IMG/VR virus record: IMGVR_UViG_3300028829_005098
Span: 1 to 64,000 of that record
Strand: one strand, 5' to 3'
Length of the DNA stretch: 64,000 bases
Origin: a virus
Below the pieces are notes generated by a model. The model was not told the origin of the DNA, searched no databases, and saw nothing but the letters and a program-made list of their open reading frames with translations. Below are positions 4,550 to 13,248 of this stretch, piece after piece; within the stretch, counting starts at the first letter, position 1; each line of letters starts with the position of its first letter. A program made the position numbers and the translations under genes.

Positions 4550-4565
4550 AAATTTAAAAGTTTAT

Positions 4566-4594
4566 GGGAGTGGTTGGGATTTCCAACCACTCCC
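4566..4594. terminator. Strong hairpin between gp32 and uvsX
   Basis: A perfect 12-bp stem (GGGAGTGGTTGG paired with CCAACCACTCCC) with a 5-base loop lies 8 bases past the gp32 stop codon. The run of T that makes a canonical intrinsic terminator follows it on the plus strand. On the transcribed minus strand the hairpin is preceded by an A run and followed only by a weak AT tract. It may therefore act as a partial terminator or as a stabilising 3' hairpin that sets gp32 expression above uvsX. Confidence 0.6.
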
Positions 4595-4602
4595 GTTTTT
4601 TG

Positions 4603-5433
4603 TTAAGACTTAAACAACTCTTCAAAAGCAGCCTCTACATCTTCAGTTGAAGTTGCATTTGGTTTGCTTTTTTCAGAAGTCGTGCTTTCTGCGGTTGGTG
4701 CTGAAGCAACGGTTTTTTCTGTCGATTCAACAACAACATCAGAATCTACTGACTCGGCAGGAGGAGCATCTTCTTCAGATTCCCCACTTACCCACTTTTC
4801 AAGTGCGTCTTTTAATTCATCGTAACCAAGTTCTTGATAAATATCTGTAATTTCAGGTTGATTGTTAGCAACATTCTCTACGATATTTTTATTATCTGAA
4901 ATAGGTGATGTATTTGGTTTCACACGGATGTTTGTCTTTGGAAAAGAACGACCTGCTTCTTCTGCTGAAAGAAATTCAATTGTGATATCTCTTCCATTAG
5001 TTGCATCGGTGATGTCTCCATAATCGGGATCAGCAATAACACTTAATAGTTCTTGATAAACTTCTTTACCAAATCCCCAAAAACGAACTCCTTCTGCTTC
5101 TTCATCACGAACGATGACAGGTACAAATGTACGCATCTTCGGCATAAGAGAACGACCCATGCGGTAATCATCTTTGTCACCACTACGAGTTAACTTTTCA
5201 GCAAACTCAACGATTGGGTCAGGACGACCAAACGACTTTGGTGATAAGTATGTTCTATTATTGATTCCATAATGAAAATACAACTCAATAAATGGATTAT
5301 CGGGTTGATGCTTGTATGGTACAATACGAACTTGTTGCTTACCAGGTTGAGGTTTCCATTGATAGTTTTTGCGATTATTTGTCTGAGACAAATTATTCAA
5401 CTTTGCTTTTATTTTATTTAGGTCAATTGCCAT
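4603..5433 (-). CDS. Single-stranded DNA-binding protein (T4 gp32-like)
   Basis: Cooperative ssDNA-binding protein that coats displaced strands and works with UvsX, helicase and primase. The N-terminus MAIDLNKIKAKLNNL resembles the LAST-type basic start of gp32 proteins. The OB-fold core holds VRIVPYKHQPDNPFIELYFH and the phage-typical SPKSFGRPDPIVEFAEKL. The last 60 residues are acidic and Ser/Thr-rich, ending EAAFEELFKS, which is the expected protein-interaction tail. There is no cysteine in the 276 residues, so the zinc knuckle of T4 gp32 is missing. AAGGA lies 8 bases before the ATG. The hairpin after the stop may raise message stability. Confidence 0.88.
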   Translation of the reverse strand: MAIDLNKIKAKLNNLSQTNNRKNYQWKPQPGKQQVRIVPYKHQPDNPFIELYFHYGINNRTYLSPKSFGRPDPIVEFAEKLTRSGDKDDYRMGRSLMPKMRTFVPVIVRDEEAEGVRFWGFGKEVYQELLSVIADPDYGDITDATNGRDITIEFLSAEEAGRSFPKTNIRVKPNTSPISDNKNIVENVANNQPEITDIYQELGYDELKDALEKWVSGESEEDAPPAESVDSDVVVESTEKTVASAPTAESTTSEKSKPNATSTEDVEAAFEELFKS

Positions 5434-5518: not shown

Positions 5519-5749
5519 TCAAGAGAATTTTCCGCCATTTTCAACGAAATTGTAAAAGTCAGAAGCAACTTCTAATACTTCATGTGTAGTTGGTAATGGT
5601 GGCATATCAGGAGAAACTTTTTCAAAATTTGCATAACTTTGCAATTCTTCTTTTTCCATGTGCCATCTTTCCCATACCATTTCTTTTGCACTTTTTAGCA
5701 CTTCCAATCGAATACCGAGATTGGTTAATTTATCAGATTCATTTGTCAT
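5519..5749 (-). CDS. Conserved small phage protein, unknown function
   Basis: A 76-residue acidic protein with no motif I can tie to a reaction. It is helical in outline: LGIRLEVLKSAKEMVWERW near the start and PTTHEVLEVASDFYNFVEN near the end. Short proteins of this pattern (an LEVLK helix, then a Pro-rich hinge and a helix ending FV) occur next to gp32 and DNA metabolism genes in T4-like phages, from memory. It is the first gene of a unit that continues into gp32 85 bases later. No clear Shine-Dalgarno sequence precedes the ATG, which is preceded by a long AT leader with one ATATTTAT motif. Confidence 0.6.
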   Translation of the reverse strand: MTNESDKLTNLGIRLEVLKSAKEMVWERWHMEKEELQSYANFEKVSPDMPPLPTTHEVLEVASDFYNFVENGGKFS

Positions 5750-5820: not shown

Positions 5821-6603
5821 TTATGTCAATTTCAAAGCATTTTTTTGAATATTTTTTTCAATTCTTTCGCATGAAATTTCAACTGCTTTTTTGTTAATAT
5901 CACATCCTATGTATCTACGATTTAAAGAATTAGCAACATCAAGTGTTGTTCCACTTCCGCAATAAAAATCTGCAACTAAATCTCCTTCATTGCTACTTGC
6001 TTTTATTATTCTTTCAAGTATCTTTGGATGTTTTTCTGAATAATAATCAGTTTGTTTTTTAACTTTTAGTCCAGATGGAATATCATCCCATACATTTGTT
6101 GGAATTGTTCCAAGTGCTAACTTTTCTGCGGTGATATTGGGACGATCTTGTTTTTTACTAATTACAGATTTGTATGGAACTCGGATATCTAAATCATTAA
6201 AAACAAAATCGTTTGATTTTGTATACACAATTATATAGTCATGTTTTTTTGCAAATTCTTTTTTTCCACGGCCACCTATATTAAATTTTACTACAATTTG
6301 GTTTCTGAAATTACTATAACCGAATATGTCATCCATAATATTTCGTATCCAGTGAACGATACGTAAATCCATTTGAAGGTATATTGTTCCTGCATCTTTT
6401 AATACACGATGCATTTCTGTTAAACGTGGAATATAGTGTTGTTCTATAACTTTTTTAGTTGGAACTAAATCTTCATAATCTTTGAATATCTTTCCAGTTC
6501 CATATAAAATGTCACAATAAATTAAATTTAATTCATTAGACTTTATATTATTTAATAATTTTATATTATCACAACAATAGATGTTGTTTTCTTTTATTAT
6601 CAC
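5821..6603 (-). CDS. DNA methyltransferase, beta-class N4/N6 type with altered catalytic motif
   Basis: An amino-methyltransferase that would modify adenine or cytosine in DNA. The motif order (catalytic motif IV first, SAM-binding motif I last) is that of beta-class enzymes. Motif I is DFYCGSGTTLDVA near residues 211-223, followed by RRYIGCDINKKAVEI, the usual SAM pocket. The catalytic motif, normally DPPY, reads D31-I-L-Y (YCDILYGTGK). The surrounding NLIYCD...GTG context fits type III-like enzymes (DPPYNTG). At 260 residues it lacks a recognisable target domain. The start is GTG, 2 bases after the SpoVR stop, so it is the last gene of the prkA operon. It could protect phage DNA or be a regulatory methylase. 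Confidence 0.8.
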   Translation of the reverse strand: MIIKENNIYCCDNIKLLNNIKSNELNLIYCDILYGTGKIFKDYEDLVPTKKVIEQHYIPRLTEMHRVLKDAGTIYLQMDLRIVHWIRNIMDDIFGYSNFRNQIVVKFNIGGRGKKEFAKKHDYIIVYTKSNDFVFNDLDIRVPYKSVISKKQDRPNITAEKLALGTIPTNVWDDIPSGLKVKKQTDYYSEKHPKILERIIKASSNEGDLVADFYCGSGTTLDVANSLNRRYIGCDINKKAVEISCERIEKNIQKNALKLT

Positions 6604-6605
6604 TA

Positions 6606-8171
6606 TTAAACTTTTCCACCTTCGTATCGTTTCATCTCACCATTATTGTAACGATAACGAACCTCAACCTCCACACTTTCTTTTGCTTCACCATATCCTT
6701 CTTCAATTACATCATAAGTAAGAATATTAATTGGTTTTTTTATTATTTCGTGTAGATATGCCATAGTACCTGTTGCATACTTTATATCAAGTGGACGACC
6801 TTCAAAATCATGTCTTAACAAAATTTCTGTATTTTTATATTTCATATTTTCAAGATAAATTACAGGACGACCCATATTAATATGTCTGTCTATTAATTTC
6901 TTTTTAATACGTTTATAGTCTTTGCTAACTACAACATATTTGTTGGTTGACTTATCAAGTGCATATTCAAAATACTCGTGCTTCTCACAAAAATCTCTTG
7001 TAAAAAATTCATTTAAAAATGTAACATCATTATAGTTCTCACGAACTTCATATAGTTTTTCACGACCTAGATTTAAGTTTTTATTCCAGTGAAGTTTTTC
7101 AAAACCATCATCACAATTTTCATACTCTTTTCCGAATTTACCTTTATTCCATCGGTCTTCAATATCACGCAACAAAGTATTTCCAAGTTTGTATGGATTG
7201 TTCATGTTATATTTACCACCCAAAACTCCTGCGTGGTGTTTTGCATAATCAAAAATACCATCGTCACCTGCAAAATTGCAAGTTGCCATTATATAAGAAT
7301 CCCAATAACTTGCCCAACCTTCGTTTAATACTTTTGTCATCCCCTGTGGTTGGTAGTAAATTGACTCATCACGAATCATACTTAAAATATTTTGTTGCCA
7401 AGGTTCTAAACGACAATGGTTGATAATGAATAACATAATATCTCGTTCAGGATGCAATGGAAACTTACTTTCGGCAAGTTTAGTTCTTTCTTCTCGTTCA
7501 CGACGTTGCTTTTCGATATAATGAGACGGATTTACATACTTCTGCATATATTCTTTTGTATCCATTCTTGATACGTGTTCACGTGGACGTCGGTCTTCAA
7601 AATTAAACTTTGTTGCTTTCTTTAAACTACTTTCACGATAGCACAATGATGGATCAATTAAATCGTCAATAGCAAGAGCCGCATTTAAAAAGTCTTTTAC
7701 CTTTTTGCGACCAAACCTATCCATGTACATACGAATTTTATCACTATGGTTTGCCATAACATTCATCATGTTACGATTCGTATGTTTGAACATAATATTA
7801 TTTTTAAAGAAGTCACTATGTGCAGTTGCGTGGGCAACAACTGTTAAATTATCAACAATAGGGTTGTTTCTTTGTAGATACATATAAGTTGGATCTGTGT
7901 TTACAACCATTTCGTAAATCTTACCCATACCTGAATGGTATTGATAGTGGAGTTGTTCAAATTGTTGTCCAAAATTAAAATGAGGATAACGAACTGGGAA
8001 TCCACCATAGGCTGCAATCTCAACTATTTCGTCCGCATCAAATTCTTCAATTACGAGTGGATATGGATCAAGTCCATTGTCATAACAGGCCTGTAAGCAT
8101 TCAGGTATTAACTTTGCTAACTCAGGACTTACTCCTTCGTTTAAACTATCGATTTCCCATGCAATTCCCAT
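6606..8171 (-). CDS. SpoVR family protein
   Basis: A full-length member (521 residues) of the SpoVR/YcgB family, whose molecular activity is not established; in Bacillus it affects spore cortex and in enterobacteria it is stress-induced. Recognition rests on the family core GGFPVRYPHFNFGQQFEQLH and SGMGKIYEMVVNTDP (about residues 55-95), the VVAHATAHSDFFKNN segment with conserved histidines, MLFIINHCRLEPWQQNIL near 245, and NEGWASYWDSYIM near 285, a zinc-protease-like helix also present in chromosomal homologues. It starts 4 bases after the DUF444 gene. The PrkA, DUF444, SpoVR order equals the chromosomal yeaG-yeaH-ycgB set, which supports the call strongly. Confidence 0.93.
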   Translation of the reverse strand: MGIAWEIDSLNEGVSPELAKLIPECLQACYDNGLDPYPLVIEEFDADEIVEIAAYGGFPVRYPHFNFGQQFEQLHYQYHSGMGKIYEMVVNTDPTYMYLQRNNPIVDNLTVVAHATAHSDFFKNNIMFKHTNRNMMNVMANHSDKIRMYMDRFGRKKVKDFLNAALAIDDLIDPSLCYRESSLKKATKFNFEDRRPREHVSRMDTKEYMQKYVNPSHYIEKQRREREERTKLAESKFPLHPERDIMLFIINHCRLEPWQQNILSMIRDESIYYQPQGMTKVLNEGWASYWDSYIMATCNFAGDDGIFDYAKHHAGVLGGKYNMNNPYKLGNTLLRDIEDRWNKGKFGKEYENCDDGFEKLHWNKNLNLGREKLYEVRENYNDVTFLNEFFTRDFCEKHEYFEYALDKSTNKYVVVSKDYKRIKKKLIDRHINMGRPVIYLENMKYKNTEILLRHDFEGRPLDIKYATGTMAYLHEIIKKPINILTYDVIEEGYGEAKESVEVEVRYRYNNGEMKRYEGGKV

Positions 8172-8175
8172 GATA

Positions 8176-9330
8176 TTAAAAAGGTACTTCTTCGTTGGAA
8201 GGTGTTAATAATTTTTTAAGAGTTTTGAATACATCACTTGCGTCTTGCATTGTAGCAGTTACAATTTTTTCAGAATCTAATGTTCCTGTTGATATTTCTT
8301 TTTCAATGTGAGGTAAAAATGTTGCCCAACTACGAACTGCTTTTACTTCGGTTATTCCAATTAAATTAGCATACTTTTGCATTGTTTTCAAATACTCTAC
8401 ACATAAATCATTATCAGAACCAAAATTTTCTCCGTCACTTAAATAAAATACGTAGATATTCCACTCGTTTAACGGAAATGCTTTTTCAATGATATCATTA
8501 ACCAAATGAAACGCACTACTAATTTGTGTTCCACCACCACTTTTATATTTGTAGAATTTTTCTTGGTCAACTTCCTGTGCATGGTGATCGTGAACGATAT
8601 ATTTTACTTGTGTTTCCTGATAGAATCGTTGTACCCAATTATCAATATACCAACACAACTCACGAATTAATGAACGTTTTTCATCGTCCATACTTGCTGA
8701 TATATCTGATACAAAAAATATGGCCGCATTGGTATCAGGTATTTCAACAGAACTCCAACTACGAAATTCTTTATCTTCTTTAATTGGATAAAAGTTAGAT
8801 AAATCGTCTTCGTTGTAATCACCTGATGAAATTAATCGTTTGAATGCGTTCTTTAATGTTTTTCGTTTATGAAGAAGTGAATTGTTTCCGACTTTGGCAA
8901 TACGATTCCATTTAATTTTTTCTTTAACCATTTCACCATTTTCTTTTGGAAGCAAGTTAGGCAGTTGGAGTTCTTCTCCTATCATATCAAAATAAGCATC
9001 CATGCTAATTCCAACATCCATTTCACGACCGTCTCCACTTCCTTCACCACCTTCACCAGGTTGGTTTCCACCTTGTCCTTGTTGTTGAGGTCCGTCACCC
9101 ACTTCGTCACCTTCACTTACTTCACCATTGCCGATACCACCACCGTCGGATGGTGATCCGTAACGGAAACTTGGGAGTTCAATTTGAGGAACACGAACTA
9201 CCACGAAGTCTTTTCCTCTTCGTGATATGCGTTGACCACTCTTGATGTGCTTTTTTAATTTATCGTCTACATTGTCATGTACAATGTCACGATATTCACG
9301 ATGGTCTTCTCTGATTCTACGAGATGGCAT
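8176..9330 (-). CDS. DUF444 family protein with VWA domain (YeaH-like)
   Basis: A 384-residue homologue of YeaH/YhbH, partner of the PrkA kinase. The N-terminus MPSRRIREDHREYRDIV and the RRGKDFVVVRVPQIELPSFR segment are typical of the family. A Gly/Gln/Glu-rich linker follows at residues 60-105. The C-terminal half is a von Willebrand factor A domain with a complete MIDAS start, SDISASMDD at about 207-215 (DxSxS), and YVFYLSDGENFGSDND near 300. Such domains bind a metal ion and mediate protein assembly. It sits 20 bases after prkA and 4 bases before spoVR. Confidence 0.92.
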   Translation of the reverse strand: MPSRRIREDHREYRDIVHDNVDDKLKKHIKSGQRISRRGKDFVVVRVPQIELPSFRYGSPSDGGGIGNGEVSEGDEVGDGPQQQGQGGNQPGEGGEGSGDGREMDVGISMDAYFDMIGEELQLPNLLPKENGEMVKEKIKWNRIAKVGNNSLLHKRKTLKNAFKRLISSGDYNEDDLSNFYPIKEDKEFRSWSSVEIPDTNAAIFFVSDISASMDDEKRSLIRELCWYIDNWVQRFYQETQVKYIVHDHHAQEVDQEKFYKYKSGGGTQISSAFHLVNDIIEKAFPLNEWNIYVFYLSDGENFGSDNDLCVEYLKTMQKYANLIGITEVKAVRSWATFLPHIEKEISTGTLDSEKIVTATMQDASDVFKTLKKLLTPSNEEVPF

Positions 9331-9350
9331 AATGATGATTTTGTTGACTA

Positions 9351-11453
9351 TTAATCTTCGTCTTCGTCTGCATCACCTCTTGCAAAAATACTACCTACAT
9401 ATGTAAGAACATCAGAAGCACTATCTGCATCGTATCCGAATGATGTAATAAGACGTTGCTTGAGTGCGTCAATCTTTTCAAGAAGTTCTTTGTCAACTAC
9501 GGTTGCAGTATCTTGTGCAAGAGCAGATAACTTAATGCTATCTTTAGTATCTTCAAACAATTTCTTTTCAAGTGCTTTGTAAAGTTGCTCGTTTGAGTCA
9601 TACTTAAATTCTTTGCCCTTAGCGGCAAGACCACCCATATAGTTCATAATTTCTCTACGGAAATCATCTTTCATACCATTAGAAATACCAATTTTTTCTT
9701 CGATGCTACGCATAAGTTGCTCGTTTGCAGTTTCTTCTTTTCCAGTTACAGGATTTGTAACTTTTTCATCTTGAATATAAGCAACGATATTATCAATGTA
9801 GTTTGTGCAAAGTGCTTTAATTGCTTCTTCACTACTGCTGAGTGCTTGTTGTACTTCACGTTTCACGATTCTGTCATATTCTTTTTCTACAAGTTCAAGA
9901 CGTTCAAACATAATCTTTTTGTTGTCTTCACTTTGAAATCCACTATAACTTTTAAGTCCTTCACGAATTTGTGCGAATAACATAAATGGATTTAAACTCT
10001 TTGCACCCATTCTTGGATTTACAATCGCATTAGAGAATTGATTCTGAATAAAACGAGCAGATACTCCACCGTATAATCCTTCTTTTGGAGATTCTTCTTG
10101 CATTTCCTTTACGTGTTCATCTGTGAAACCATGTACACTTTGTCCGTTGTAAAGTTTTGCTTTTTGAATGATGCTCATATCTTGCTTTGAACTTTCTTCT
10201 AAACGACTTACAACCGCAAACAACGCAGCTAAAAATGTTGTATGTGGTGCAATATGCTTATTTACAGTGCTTTTATTATAGAAGTGATCATAAATTTTCT
10301 TTTCTTCCGAAATCTTCAAAAGATACGGAATATCAATTTTAATAGTTCTATCACGAAGTGCTTCCATGAATTTATTGTTGGTTAACTTTTCAAACTCAGC
10401 ATTATTCGTATGACCAAGAATAACTTCATCAATAGGTACTTGGTTGAAACGACGTGGTTTAACACGATGTTCTTGGGTTGCACCAAGTAAATCATACAAG
10501 AATTCAGTTTGAAGTTTAAGAATTTCTTGAAACTCAATCAAACCACGATTAGATACCAAGAACTCTCCATCAAAATCAAATGCACGGGGATCACTTTCAC
10601 TTCCATATTCAGCAAGTTTTCTGTAATTAATGTCACCTGTAAGTTCTGTTGCATCTTGTGACTTTTCGTCTTTTGGTTGAAATGTTCCGATTCCGACACG
10701 ATTCTTCTCGGACAAAACAACACGTCTAACCACTACATGATCAAGAACTTTACGATAATCACCACCGTGCATTTCCATAAGTTGATTATAGTAAAACTCG
10801 TTTACAGGATTCAAAGAACCATCAAGTTTTAATTTATATTCATCTGCGGAAATTGTTTTATTTAAATTATTAATGATCTGAGAACGCACATCGTCAGGAA
10901 GAAGTTTGAGTGGTTCTTCGTTCATTGGACATGGAACTAATACATCATCACCATTTTTATCGGTTACTTTCCAACTAAATGAATATAAAGCACCTTCTTC
11001 AGTTTGAGTGTATTGTTCTAGTCCTTTCTTAAGAGCAGTAACAATAGTTGACTTACTACTTCCAACAGGACCATGTAAAAGAATAACACGACGTTCAGGA
11101 CCATAGTGACGACTTGCACTTTTAAGAATGTCCATAAATTCCATTAAATTCTCTTCAAGTCCATAAATAGATATGTCACCAAGGTTTTGGAAAAATTTAT
11201 ACTTAACATATTGTCTCTTGCAATACTTGAACTCGTCTGTTCCATGAGACATTACCATGTCGTATAATCTTTGGTAAGAATTTCTTGCTATCTTTGGATT
11301 GCTTTCCAATAGAGCAATGTAATCCCAGAAACTTCCTGACCAATTCAGTGACTTATATGTATCAATGGATTTGTTGTTTTCAGATTTGATTAAAGACTTT
11401 AGGTCACTTACAACCTTTTTTTCTTTTTTTTCGTGTCGTTTTTTATTTTCCAT
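9351..11453 (-). CDS. PrkA family serine kinase / AAA+ ATPase (YeaG-like)
   Basis: A 700-residue PrkA homologue. PrkA proteins combine an AAA+ domain with a C-terminal kinase-like region and have been described as serine kinases, and in Bacillus as an ATP-dependent protease. Walker A GPVGSSKST lies at about residues 126-134. CPMNEEPLKLLPDDVR is the family's characteristic post-Walker segment. RDRTIKIDIPYLLKISEEKK and GLYGGVSARFIQNQFSNAI mark the sensor and C-terminal parts. The frame is open further upstream, but the ATG at 11453 is preferred: it has AAGG 8 bases before it and begins the basic MENKKRHEKK segment. It heads the prkA-yeaH-spoVR-methylase unit. Confidence 0.92.
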   Translation of the reverse strand: MENKKRHEKKEKKVVSDLKSLIKSENNKSIDTYKSLNWSGSFWDYIALLESNPKIARNSYQRLYDMVMSHGTDEFKYCKRQYVKYKFFQNLGDISIYGLEENLMEFMDILKSASRHYGPERRVILLHGPVGSSKSTIVTALKKGLEQYTQTEEGALYSFSWKVTDKNGDDVLVPCPMNEEPLKLLPDDVRSQIINNLNKTISADEYKLKLDGSLNPVNEFYYNQLMEMHGGDYRKVLDHVVVRRVVLSEKNRVGIGTFQPKDEKSQDATELTGDINYRKLAEYGSESDPRAFDFDGEFLVSNRGLIEFQEILKLQTEFLYDLLGATQEHRVKPRRFNQVPIDEVILGHTNNAEFEKLTNNKFMEALRDRTIKIDIPYLLKISEEKKIYDHFYNKSTVNKHIAPHTTFLAALFAVVSRLEESSKQDMSIIQKAKLYNGQSVHGFTDEHVKEMQEESPKEGLYGGVSARFIQNQFSNAIVNPRMGAKSLNPFMLFAQIREGLKSYSGFQSEDNKKIMFERLELVEKEYDRIVKREVQQALSSSEEAIKALCTNYIDNIVAYIQDEKVTNPVTGKEETANEQLMRSIEEKIGISNGMKDDFRREIMNYMGGLAAKGKEFKYDSNEQLYKALEKKLFEDTKDSIKLSALAQDTATVVDKELLEKIDALKQRLITSFGYDADSASDVLTYVGSIFARGDADEDED

Positions 11454-11497
11454 AACCATTACCTTATATTTGTTTTGTTGATTCGTCAAATAATAAA

Positions 11498-11902
11498 TCA
11501 AATTTTTATTATTTTAAATAATTTTGTGGGTACTATCTTCAAAGCATCACTTGTTGTAGTGTCAGTTAAAAGAATTGAATTTGTATAATCATTCCAATTA
11601 ACCATGTAATTTTGATCAAGTATTCCGTTGTTTAGTGTTTTAATTAGTGCGTTCAATGAATTTATAGTATAGATTGTATTAGAATCTTTTTTTCTGTGAA
11701 CACTTATTGTGTTGGGAAAAAAAGAACTAGTATTTAATGTACTAGAATCTATGTTGTATGTCAATAGCAATTCGTTAACATTGTCTTTGTTTTGCAAAAC
11801 ATACACTTTGTTGAATAATATCTTATAAAAATTTTTGATATTCTCTATTGTATTAGAATATTCAGATATTTTTGAAAATGTACAAAGTAGTTGAGTTCTC
11901 AT
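11498..11902 (-). CDS. Conserved T4-type hypothetical protein
   Basis: A 134-residue protein without a known function. It begins MRTQLLCTFSKISEYSNTIE and contains KVYVLQNKDNVNELLLTYNI, a pattern I recall from small conserved proteins of marine T4-like phages. The longer frame up to 11950 would add an unlikely Tyr/Ile-rich leader (YIHIYYYLKV); the ATG at 11902 is preferred because AAAGG precedes it by 11 bases and the family-like sequence starts there. It lies between the polymerase-like gene and prkA. Confidence 0.65.
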   Translation of the reverse strand: MRTQLLCTFSKISEYSNTIENIKNFYKILFNKVYVLQNKDNVNELLLTYNIDSSTLNTSSFFPNTISVHRKKDSNTIYTINSLNALIKTLNNGILDQNYMVNWNDYTNSILLTDTTTSDALKIVPTKLFKIIKI

Positions 11903-11926
11903 AATCAGTATAACCTTTAGGTAATA

Positions 11927-11934
11927 ATAAATAT
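11927..11934 (-). promoter_or_regulatory. ATATTTAT promoter-like motif before the prkA operon
   Basis: Coding-strand ATATTTAT, 24 bases before the ATG at 11902 and about 470 bases upstream of prkA. If active it would drive the small gene and the PrkA-YeaH-SpoVR triad together. Confidence 0.4.
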
Positions 11935-11946
11935 GAATATATTTTC

Positions 11947-13248
11947 TCAAACCTTTAGTTCTTTTAGATTGCCATATGAATTACCAACATAAACTCGTAG
12001 TGGAAATTTATTATTGTCAGTAAGTTCTTTGATTATATCTTTAATTAAATAAAACTCATCTTTATGCATATCCAGCATAAAAGCATCATAATGATACAGA
12101 AACAATTTACTTCTGTGAGTTTCTAATCGTGAATTCAATTTTAATATCATATCACAATTTTGTTCCGTCTCTGCTGATTGAATTAAATAGTTAAATAACT
12201 TATATGGATTGAGTTGAGTAAAATACTCTTTACTTATTTTTCTACTATATTTCCAAGTAGTAACATAACCCTTGTTATTAAATTCACTCCACACAGAATC
12301 AACATAATCTGCCACACACTTCATGAATGGAATGTGTTTTTTAATATCTTCTGATATACCTCCATATATTAAATTAAATGTTACTTTTTTTGATAACTCA
12401 TATTCTTTTTCATTCAAATGCTCTTTATCGTGATAAAACTTTCCAAGATATTCGTGCAAAGAATATGAAGGTAATTCAAAATTTAAATAGTCACCGACTA
12501 ATCTTAAATGATAACTCTCATAATCAATCATTACAATACCACCCTCGTTTCCAAATCTACTTACAAATGAATCTCGTTCATTTTTCTTTTTATTAAGAGC
12601 CGCAAAGTTAATTTTAGCAAATCTATTACTTGGACGAGTTGTTGGTGTATAATAATTATATTGACTATACACATAATTGCTATCGTCTATTAATGATAAG
12701 TCACCTAGATTAAATGTATCTCGGTTTACATAAACTCCATTCGTTTCTATATCATAAAAACATTTACATAAATTATTTGATAATCTTGTATTATTATCAT
12801 CTTCAGTTCCGATATAAGAATTTAAAAGTTTCAAGGTATCGTCGAAACTTTTTTTTAGTATCATAATAGGTACAGATTTTATGTCGGAAAACCTTGGATA
12901 TTTATATGTTATTTGTTCAAGAGTAGTAACATAAACATCATACGATAAATCAATAAAATTATCTACATTTAAAAAATGATTTGCTTCTTTTTTATTTAAA
13001 ATATATTTTTTACATCTTGTATCAATTAACTTAGTTAAACATCTATTATCGAGTAATACTACATCAGGGTGACCAAATGATAATACATAATTTTCATTTG
13101 TTTCTCTGTGATGCACAAACAAAGCAATCAGTTCTGCTTTACTCGGATGTATTCGTTCATCATATATCAACTGAAAAAAACTATGTCCTGAATTAAGTTT
13201 ATTCAGCAACGAAACAAACTCATCATAAGTTTCTACAAAATTTAACAT
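11947..13248 (-). CDS. Divergent DNA polymerase family A-like protein
   Basis: A 433-residue protein that carries the three polymerase motifs of family A in correct order and spacing. Motif A reads MIDYESYHLRLVG (Asp at about 241; usual DYSQIELR). Motif B reads SKKVTFNLIYGG near 286-297 (Lys kept, FGxxYG as FNLIYG, the upstream Arg replaced). Motif C reads YHYDAF near 384-388 (usual VHDE, Asp kept). TPTTRPSNRFAKINFAAL before motif A matches the family's GRLS region. There is no recognisable 3'-5' exonuclease domain; the first 150 residues are unassigned. Both catalytic aspartates remain but several supporting residues differ, so it may be a specialised or weakly active polymerase, or a structural relative. 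Confidence 0.7.
   Translation of the reverse strand: MLNFVETYDEFVSLLNKLNSGHSFFQLIYDERIHPSKAELIALFVHHRETNENYVLSFGHPDVVLLDNRCLTKLIDTRCKKYILNKKEANHFLNVDNFIDLSYDVYVTTLEQITYKYPRFSDIKSVPIMILKKSFDDTLKLLNSYIGTEDDNNTRLSNNLCKCFYDIETNGVYVNRDTFNLGDLSLIDDSNYVYSQYNYYTPTTRPSNRFAKINFAALNKKKNERDSFVSRFGNEGGIVMIDYESYHLRLVGDYLNFELPSYSLHEYLGKFYHDKEHLNEKEYELSKKVTFNLIYGGISEDIKKHIPFMKCVADYVDSVWSEFNNKGYVTTWKYSRKISKEYFTQLNPYKLFNYLIQSAETEQNCDMILKLNSRLETHRSKLFLYHYDAFMLDMHKDEFYLIKDIIKELTDNNKFPLRVYVGNSYGNLKELKV

Follow-up and report, generated by a model that had tools for sequence, protein, structure and literature searches.

The PrkA-YeaH-SpoVR gene triad is a conserved phage module and a variant of the bacterial set

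The three-gene set known from bacteria and archaea as prkA-yeaH-spoVR (yeaGH plus ycgB in Escherichia coli) is present, complete, in the virus record IMGVR_UViG_3300028829_005098 (115,415 bp), of which bases 1 to 64,000, here called the window, were the stretch of DNA analysed. The record encodes a major head protein, portal, TerL and sheath of T4 type, and the window phage is a T4-type myovirus. We find that its triad is a genuine module of phages, conserved among them as a variant of the bacterial set, and that it is commoner in phages than first thought. An earlier note, made from the letters of the window, had described three adjacent full-length members in the bacterial gene order, an intact PrkA Walker A and a complete metal ion-dependent adhesion site (MIDAS) in the von Willebrand factor A (VWA) protein, and all of this description was borne out.

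All on the minus strand, the genes follow one another head to tail with intergenic spaces of 20 and 4 bases, and a co-directional methyltransferase gene begins 2 bases past SpoVR (Table 1). Pfam recognizes AAA_PrkA (3.5e-85) and the PrkA C-terminal domain (4.4e-70) across residues 57-701 of the 716 in the first product, DUF444 (3.8e-66) in the second, and SpoVR (4.5e-107, residues 17-432) in the third. A MoxR-type AAA+ identity for the first was rejected, the PrkA type being the sole AAA family above its Pfam cut-off. Its Walker A reads GPVGSSKS, with K134 identical in all 38 aligned PrkA proteins, and the MIDAS of the DUF444 protein (D209-x-S211-x-S213...T268...D299) is invariant at D209, S211, T268 and D299 and nearly so at S213 among 39 aligned sequences. 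The PrkA open reading frame (ORF) at 9351-11501 opens with TTG; ATG codons at 11459 and 11453 are alternative starts, and an AAGGTA-like sequence stands upstream of both. A terminator-like site was looked for on the minus strand among the four genes from PrkA to the methyltransferase and none was found, and promoter-like sites occurred at chance level (46 versus 49.8 +/- 6.5 in a promoter scan).

The intact triad, which the earlier note had held to be exceptional in a phage, is instead the rule among phages that carry a member. Three scans of IMG/VR, with the best 80 kept from each, were made with the window PrkA (161 relatives), an enterobacterial-type phage PrkA (121) and SpoVR (191), and all three members were found in 209 of 235 scanned loci, in identical order and strand every time (209/209). 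Since the scans overlap, distinct loci were counted by a shared 400-base stretch, with the records L189 and L194 excluded beforehand as probable host DNA. Among 141 distinct viral loci, 122 were complete and 17 were truncated at a contig end; the other 2 missed a member although there was room for it (SpoVR in L185, PrkA in L296). The whole triad was held by 72 of the 77 new loci from the SpoVR scan, and SpoVR was found in each of the 16 triad-bearing records tested; a T4-type major head protein was matched in 9 of these records (weakly in one, G020) and in none of 14 cellular controls. Only four of the 14 control genomes (E. coli, Bacillus subtilis, Thermus and Haloferax) have SpoVR and DUF444, and Bacteroides is not among them.

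A collection of phage genomes added Thermus phages and four huge uncultured phages to the carriers. In three huge phages (635-642 kb) PrkA shares 62-65% identity with E. coli YeaG; the PrkA and DUF444 genes of LR756502 are about 240 kb away from its SpoVR gene. Phage triads therefore comprise at least three sequence types, one myxobacterial/planctomycete-like, one enterobacterial-like and one of Thermus phages. The proposal that the three proteins work as one machine is supported indirectly by this co-retention: each type keeps all members, despite intervening genes or, in LR756502, a great distance. Across the lineages there is no single common neighbour, which fits a self-contained machine.

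In a PrkA tree of 89 rows, phages formed groups A (the window family, 32 loci), B and C beside the bacteria, which were represented by 29 of the best 80 loci by match to the window PrkA plus E. coli; a closer bacterium may exist. The trees are quick ones with support values that are not bootstrap values, and the Thermus-phage rows, long branches of unsure placement, were omitted from those of SpoVR and DUF444. Support was 100 for the split uniting A and B, 99 for group C (which includes a 595-kb phage) and 100 for the 29 sampled bacteria; A, B and C came together with support of 93 in the SpoVR tree and 98 in the DUF444 tree. In all three trees the window phage falls within phage groups that are separate from the sampled bacteria, and by this placement the triad is phage-owned. 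The nearest bacterial PrkA proteins among the matches listed are 52-56% identical to that of the window. Group A is nested among B in the PrkA tree, and A and B genomes have no other neighbour gene in common, a pattern that speaks for exchange of the triad between phage lineages.

Selection on the window triad resembles that on core replication genes. When the window was compared with 12 chosen group-A loci of the 32 (11 for DnaB) at ten genes, the mean ratio of nonsynonymous to synonymous polymorphism (pN/pS) was 0.10 for SpoVR, 0.12 for PrkA and 0.17 for DUF444, as against 0.12 for the single-strand binding protein (SSB), 0.13 for UvsX, 0.14 for the exonuclease, 0.16 for DnaB, 0.23 for the methyltransferase, 0.37 for the small gene left of the triad and 0.49 for PolA. 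SpoVR and PrkA are thus among the slowest-evolving of the ten, and the triad is under strong purifying selection.

The nearest isolates by terminase, Flavobacterium phage immuto (52%) and Microcystis phage Mel-JY01, help to place the module in its genome. Immuto has the order PolA, small gene, one further gene, SSB, recombinase, exonuclease, DnaB and no triad; its small gene is a homologue (53% identity) of that in the window. The window keeps this order but has, between the small gene and SSB, the triad followed by the methyltransferase and a 76-aa ORF. We fetched viral contigs with the window UvsX and examined 78 loci, 39 of them with both flanks of this slot. The triad occupied a slot of about 6.1 kb in 11 of 11 both-flank loci with UvsX identity of at least 80%, and was found in 0 of 28 from a sister lineage (UvsX 60-65%), whose slots span 93 bases to 4.3 kb; these counts do not tell gain from loss. 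The replication operon has a variable slot here, which the triad occupies as a cassette and whose alternative cargo includes a 722-aa VWA protein, amidase-like endolysins and a SAM (S-adenosylmethionine)-lyase-like gene.

Several side observations concern this region. In sister phages (L410:1276-3444, L384 and L415) the slot holds the 722-aa protein, which combines an HEGSH motif with a VWA end of MIDAS type, and in Mel-JY01 it holds the SAM-lyase-like gene (L170:9566-10852). The PolA-like gene and the small gene (window 11498-13248) have median identities of 48% and 60% within the family, versus 80-92% for the adjoining triad and replication genes, and their edge is a possible recombination border. 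A strong plus-strand terminator-like hairpin of 15 pairs lies at 4564-4596, between the minus-strand UvsX and SSB genes.

Table 1. Coordinates of the triad, its neighbours in the window and example genes at other triad loci
Feature	Location	Strand	Remarks
Small gene after PolA-like gene, left-hand slot landmark	window 11498..11950	minus	Also in phages without triad
PrkA/YeaG family AAA+ protein	window 9351..11453	minus	700 aa from ATG 11453; Pfam AAA_PrkA and PrkA C-terminal; Walker A intact
DUF444/YeaH family VWA protein	window 8176..9330	minus	384 aa; complete MIDAS
SpoVR family protein	window 6606..8171	minus	521 aa; no intein
N4/N6 DNA methyltransferase	window 5821..6603	minus	Motif I DFYCGSGT; motif IV DILY replacing DPPY; window phage family only
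76-aa ORF, last gene of inserted cassette	window 5519..5749	minus	
gp32-like SSB, right-hand slot landmark	window 4603..5433	minus	Then UvsX, exonuclease, DnaB
ClpP-family serine protease, example	L042:6447-7148		Group C; 19 other loci likewise
Elongation factor G (EF-G) gene, example	L201:10988-13057		8 other loci likewise
Intein-bearing SpoVR, examples	L044:11233-14055; L047:11280-14201; L067:12158-16282		

Compared with the bacterial and archaeal set, the window copy has the same three families, intact ATPase and MIDAS residues and the gene order that prevails among the 80 bacterial loci retrieved. It differs in belonging to a phage-only clade and in its place in a phage replication operon with a methyltransferase after it, and no stress promoter was seen. 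In the open-licence literature searched, we found no description of the three-gene set in a phage. The Thermus phages phiYS40, TMA, MN1, phiLo and Lalka also have all three families, annotated as a serine kinase or AAA ATPase, as SpoVR, and as a conserved, hypothetical or vWA protein; SpoVR of Lalka8 is annotated as hypothetical and matches a phiYS40 protein at 24%. These phages differ from the window phage in gene order (DUF444-SpoVR-PrkA), in a PrkA of only about 30-33% identity and, in Lalka8, in the packaging genes beside the triad. The Ralstonia jumbo phage RsoM2USA has SpoVR (ORF28) and PrkA (ORF30) on one strand, and the 1.36-kb space between them is wide enough for a DUF444 gene (ORF29, unnamed in the excerpted account); by that paper's best matches it is gammaproteobacterial-like, unlike the window triad (PMC8504454). 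RsoM2USA was not among the matches in the phage collection searched.

As to function, we tentatively favour, at a little under an even chance, a reading in which the phage-owned triad is a three-part AAA+/VWA/SpoVR machine that is kept and exchanged as one unit and used on host physiology. PrkA would be its ATP-driven ring motor, and the DUF444 protein, by analogy with the VWA/MIDAS partners of other AAA+ motors, would act as a MIDAS adaptor of PrkA that grips substrates. SpoVR may be the working or substrate-facing member, with a conserved pocket formed by its IYEMVIN, HxxxH and NEGWA motifs. Such a machine could impose a quiescent, resource-sparing state on the host, as YeaG/YeaH do in starved E. 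coli, and this hold would then be part of host takeover rather than of sporulation.

Work on the bacterial proteins gives this reading its background. Deletions of yeaG and yeaH have the same phenotype in E. coli, and YeaG with the Walker A change K116A, like other mutants, fails to complement (PMC4664914). A study of haloarchaeal genomes noted that the three families occur together there and in many other microbial genomes (PMC3102087). YeaG/YeaH has been termed a metabolic brake in E. coli (PMC10954441), and because of that literature the earlier suggestion that the phage holds a starved host in a productive state is plausible. Three points weigh on the other side. Neighbours vary by lineage (replication genes, ClpP/DnaE, NeuB, tail genes, portal/TerL) and give no pointer to host shut-off. 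If the hosts are Bacteroidota, the window phage would bring a foreign brake, the control Bacteroides not being among the genomes with SpoVR and DUF444. Findings on E. coli YeaG may also not transfer to the window PrkA, in which K426, mutated in earlier work on YeaG as a residue of a serine/threonine kinase domain, is replaced by N471.

Lysine occupies the K426 position in just 2 of the 38 aligned PrkA proteins and does not define the family; with asparagine there in the window protein, a kinase reading of it looks weak. A PrkA homologue has been solved (PDB entries 9xip, 9xiq and 9xir). The model of the DUF444 protein matches VWA folds, including the MIDAS domains of Rea1 and MDN1, and nothing notable was found for it among PDB sequences with a single sequence or a profile. 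MoxR/CobS-type AAA+ proteins with VWA partners, which likewise pair a motor with a MIDAS protein, may work in a similar way, and three sister-phage loci have the HEGSH VWA protein in the same slot; PrkA, however, belongs to a separate AAA family. A replacement of CobS/MoxR by the triad was rejected, a MoxR-type ATPase being present in both lineages (weaker in group A and none in the window record).

The fold and working part of SpoVR were approached by modelling and by its inteins. Its AlphaFold model (mean predicted local distance difference test score 81) had no significant match by Foldseek. In VIA-align the top rows were mostly zinc metallopeptidases, with Z of 10.9 for 3o0y (a putative lipoprotein), 9.2 for LTA4H and 8.8 for an M32 carboxypeptidase, values that helical models can also reach; ACE2, ACE, DPP III and BepA came further down. 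Searches of PDB sequences with the single SpoVR sequence and a profile gave no notable match and none to zincins. The NEGWASY of SpoVR resembles NEGFASY of M1 peptidases, which holds the third zinc ligand, and a zincin-like fold is a lead from the model. SpoVR as a catalytic HExxH (gluzincin) peptidase was rejected: the catalytic Glu is missing, the residue after the first His of HxxxH being Ala or Val in 184 of 184 matching sequences (of 202), and the enterobacterial-type sequences, 35 of the 184, have HxxxxH, with one residue more between the two His.

Inteins favour functional sites of important proteins. Group-C phage SpoVR genes carry them, with Intein_splicing and LAGLIDADG_3 domains, at IYEMVIN^T and NEGWA^S, and both sites are occupied in L067 and L069. 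Because inteins are inserted there, these motifs are probably the working part of SpoVR. Intein-like inserts homologous to those of the phages also occur at the second site (NEGWA^) in four bacterial SpoVR sequences (L104, L107, L141 and L146), the inserts of phage L044 and bacterial L104 being 41% identical. L250 SpoVR has a possible third intein site.

A more specific proposal, something of a long shot, is that SpoVR is a zincin-like, metal-binding, RNA-contacting pseudo-peptidase loaded by PrkA-DUF444, and that several lineages of large phages use it for a reversible hold on host translation or metabolism. SpoVR of B. subtilis has been crosslinked to RNA in vivo (PMC12456014), and a full-length EF-G gene follows SpoVR in 9 of 84 gamma-type loci (Pfam was run on one of the nine), which would fit action at the ribosome. 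One locus of this kind, L195, has a T4-type major head protein in the same record. If true, such a hold would be the first mechanism for the bacterial PrkA-YeaH-SpoVR set.

The neighbours of the triad bear on a different view, in which it remodels, or proteolyses, the phage's own replication complexes or virion parts and leaves host physiology alone. The triad lies inside the replication operon in group A, while in group C PrkA is preceded by a zinc-ribbon gene and, in 20 of 44 loci, a ClpP-type protease and then DnaE come after SpoVR. In Lalka8 the triad sits between portal/minor head and TerL, and PAAR tail(-spike) genes lie upstream in some gamma-type loci. Yet the neighbours differ in every lineage (NeuB adjoins two group-B loci), and sister phages with the same replication genes manage without the triad. 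ClpP was found in only 8 of 16 triad-bearing records and not in the window record, beside the triad in group C and elsewhere in the others, and was rejected as a constant fourth partner. Test substrates were left uncleaved by pure PrkA of Bacillus anthracis (PMC13001217). We consider action on the phage's own proteins unlikely, if worth keeping in view.

Methyltransferases and SAM lyases are anti-restriction gene types, and the variable slot holds one here and the other in Mel-JY01. This would suit counter-defence or superinfection exclusion, with triad and methyltransferase together blocking a response of the host or of a rival phage. The methyltransferase (N6_N4_Mtase, 7.8e-42), whose motif IV is DILY or DVLY instead of DPPY in 28 of 28 family members compared, does not travel with the triad elsewhere, however: it adjoins SpoVR in the window phage family only, and none was found alongside group B and C triads. 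It was therefore rejected as a fourth member, and the part of the earlier note that had counted it into the set does not stand. PADLOC models (2023) match neither PrkA nor DUF444, the SpoVR value of 0.0077 is at chance level, and no model supports a known anti-phage defence system. Strong conservation and purifying selection are also unlike the fast evolution of anti-defence genes, and a role in counter-defence is improbable.

A sporulation role, in which the phage would drive its hosts into spores, is suggested by the family names and by viruses of oxygen-minimum zones, where SpoVR was the most abundant 'sporulation' gene and was taken to mean spore formation (PMC8940887). The phage sequence types are myxobacterial/planctomycete-like and enterobacterial-like, and in 72 of 77 loci SpoVR is accompanied by PrkA and DUF444. 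The families are also present in E. coli and Haloferax, which form no spores, and auxiliary sporulation genes are a very improbable reading. Misassembly or misbinning does bring host DNA into such collections, as probably in Enterobacter phage LAU1 (MN688132.1), L189 (98%) and L194 (77%), whose yeaG is near-identical or close to that of E. coli, but for the window triad it is excluded by synteny (the same phage genes flank the triad in the 32 related group-A loci) and by trees in which phage-only clades (support 100 for PrkA) stand apart from bacteria, and these together with the T4-type genes uphold the earlier view of a real phage genome.

Conservation of PrkA, YeaH and SpoVR extends widely across bacteria and haloarchaea. 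That three phage sequence types each keep all the members is evidence from nature for one machine, and phages offer a clean setting, in which genes can be deleted, expressed and timed, for finding its substrate. Where a viral spoVR is annotated alone, it most often belongs to a triad and should not be read as a sporulation gene, which corrects a current reading of viromes. Concrete leads to the mechanism come from the ClpP and EF-G neighbours and from the inteins.

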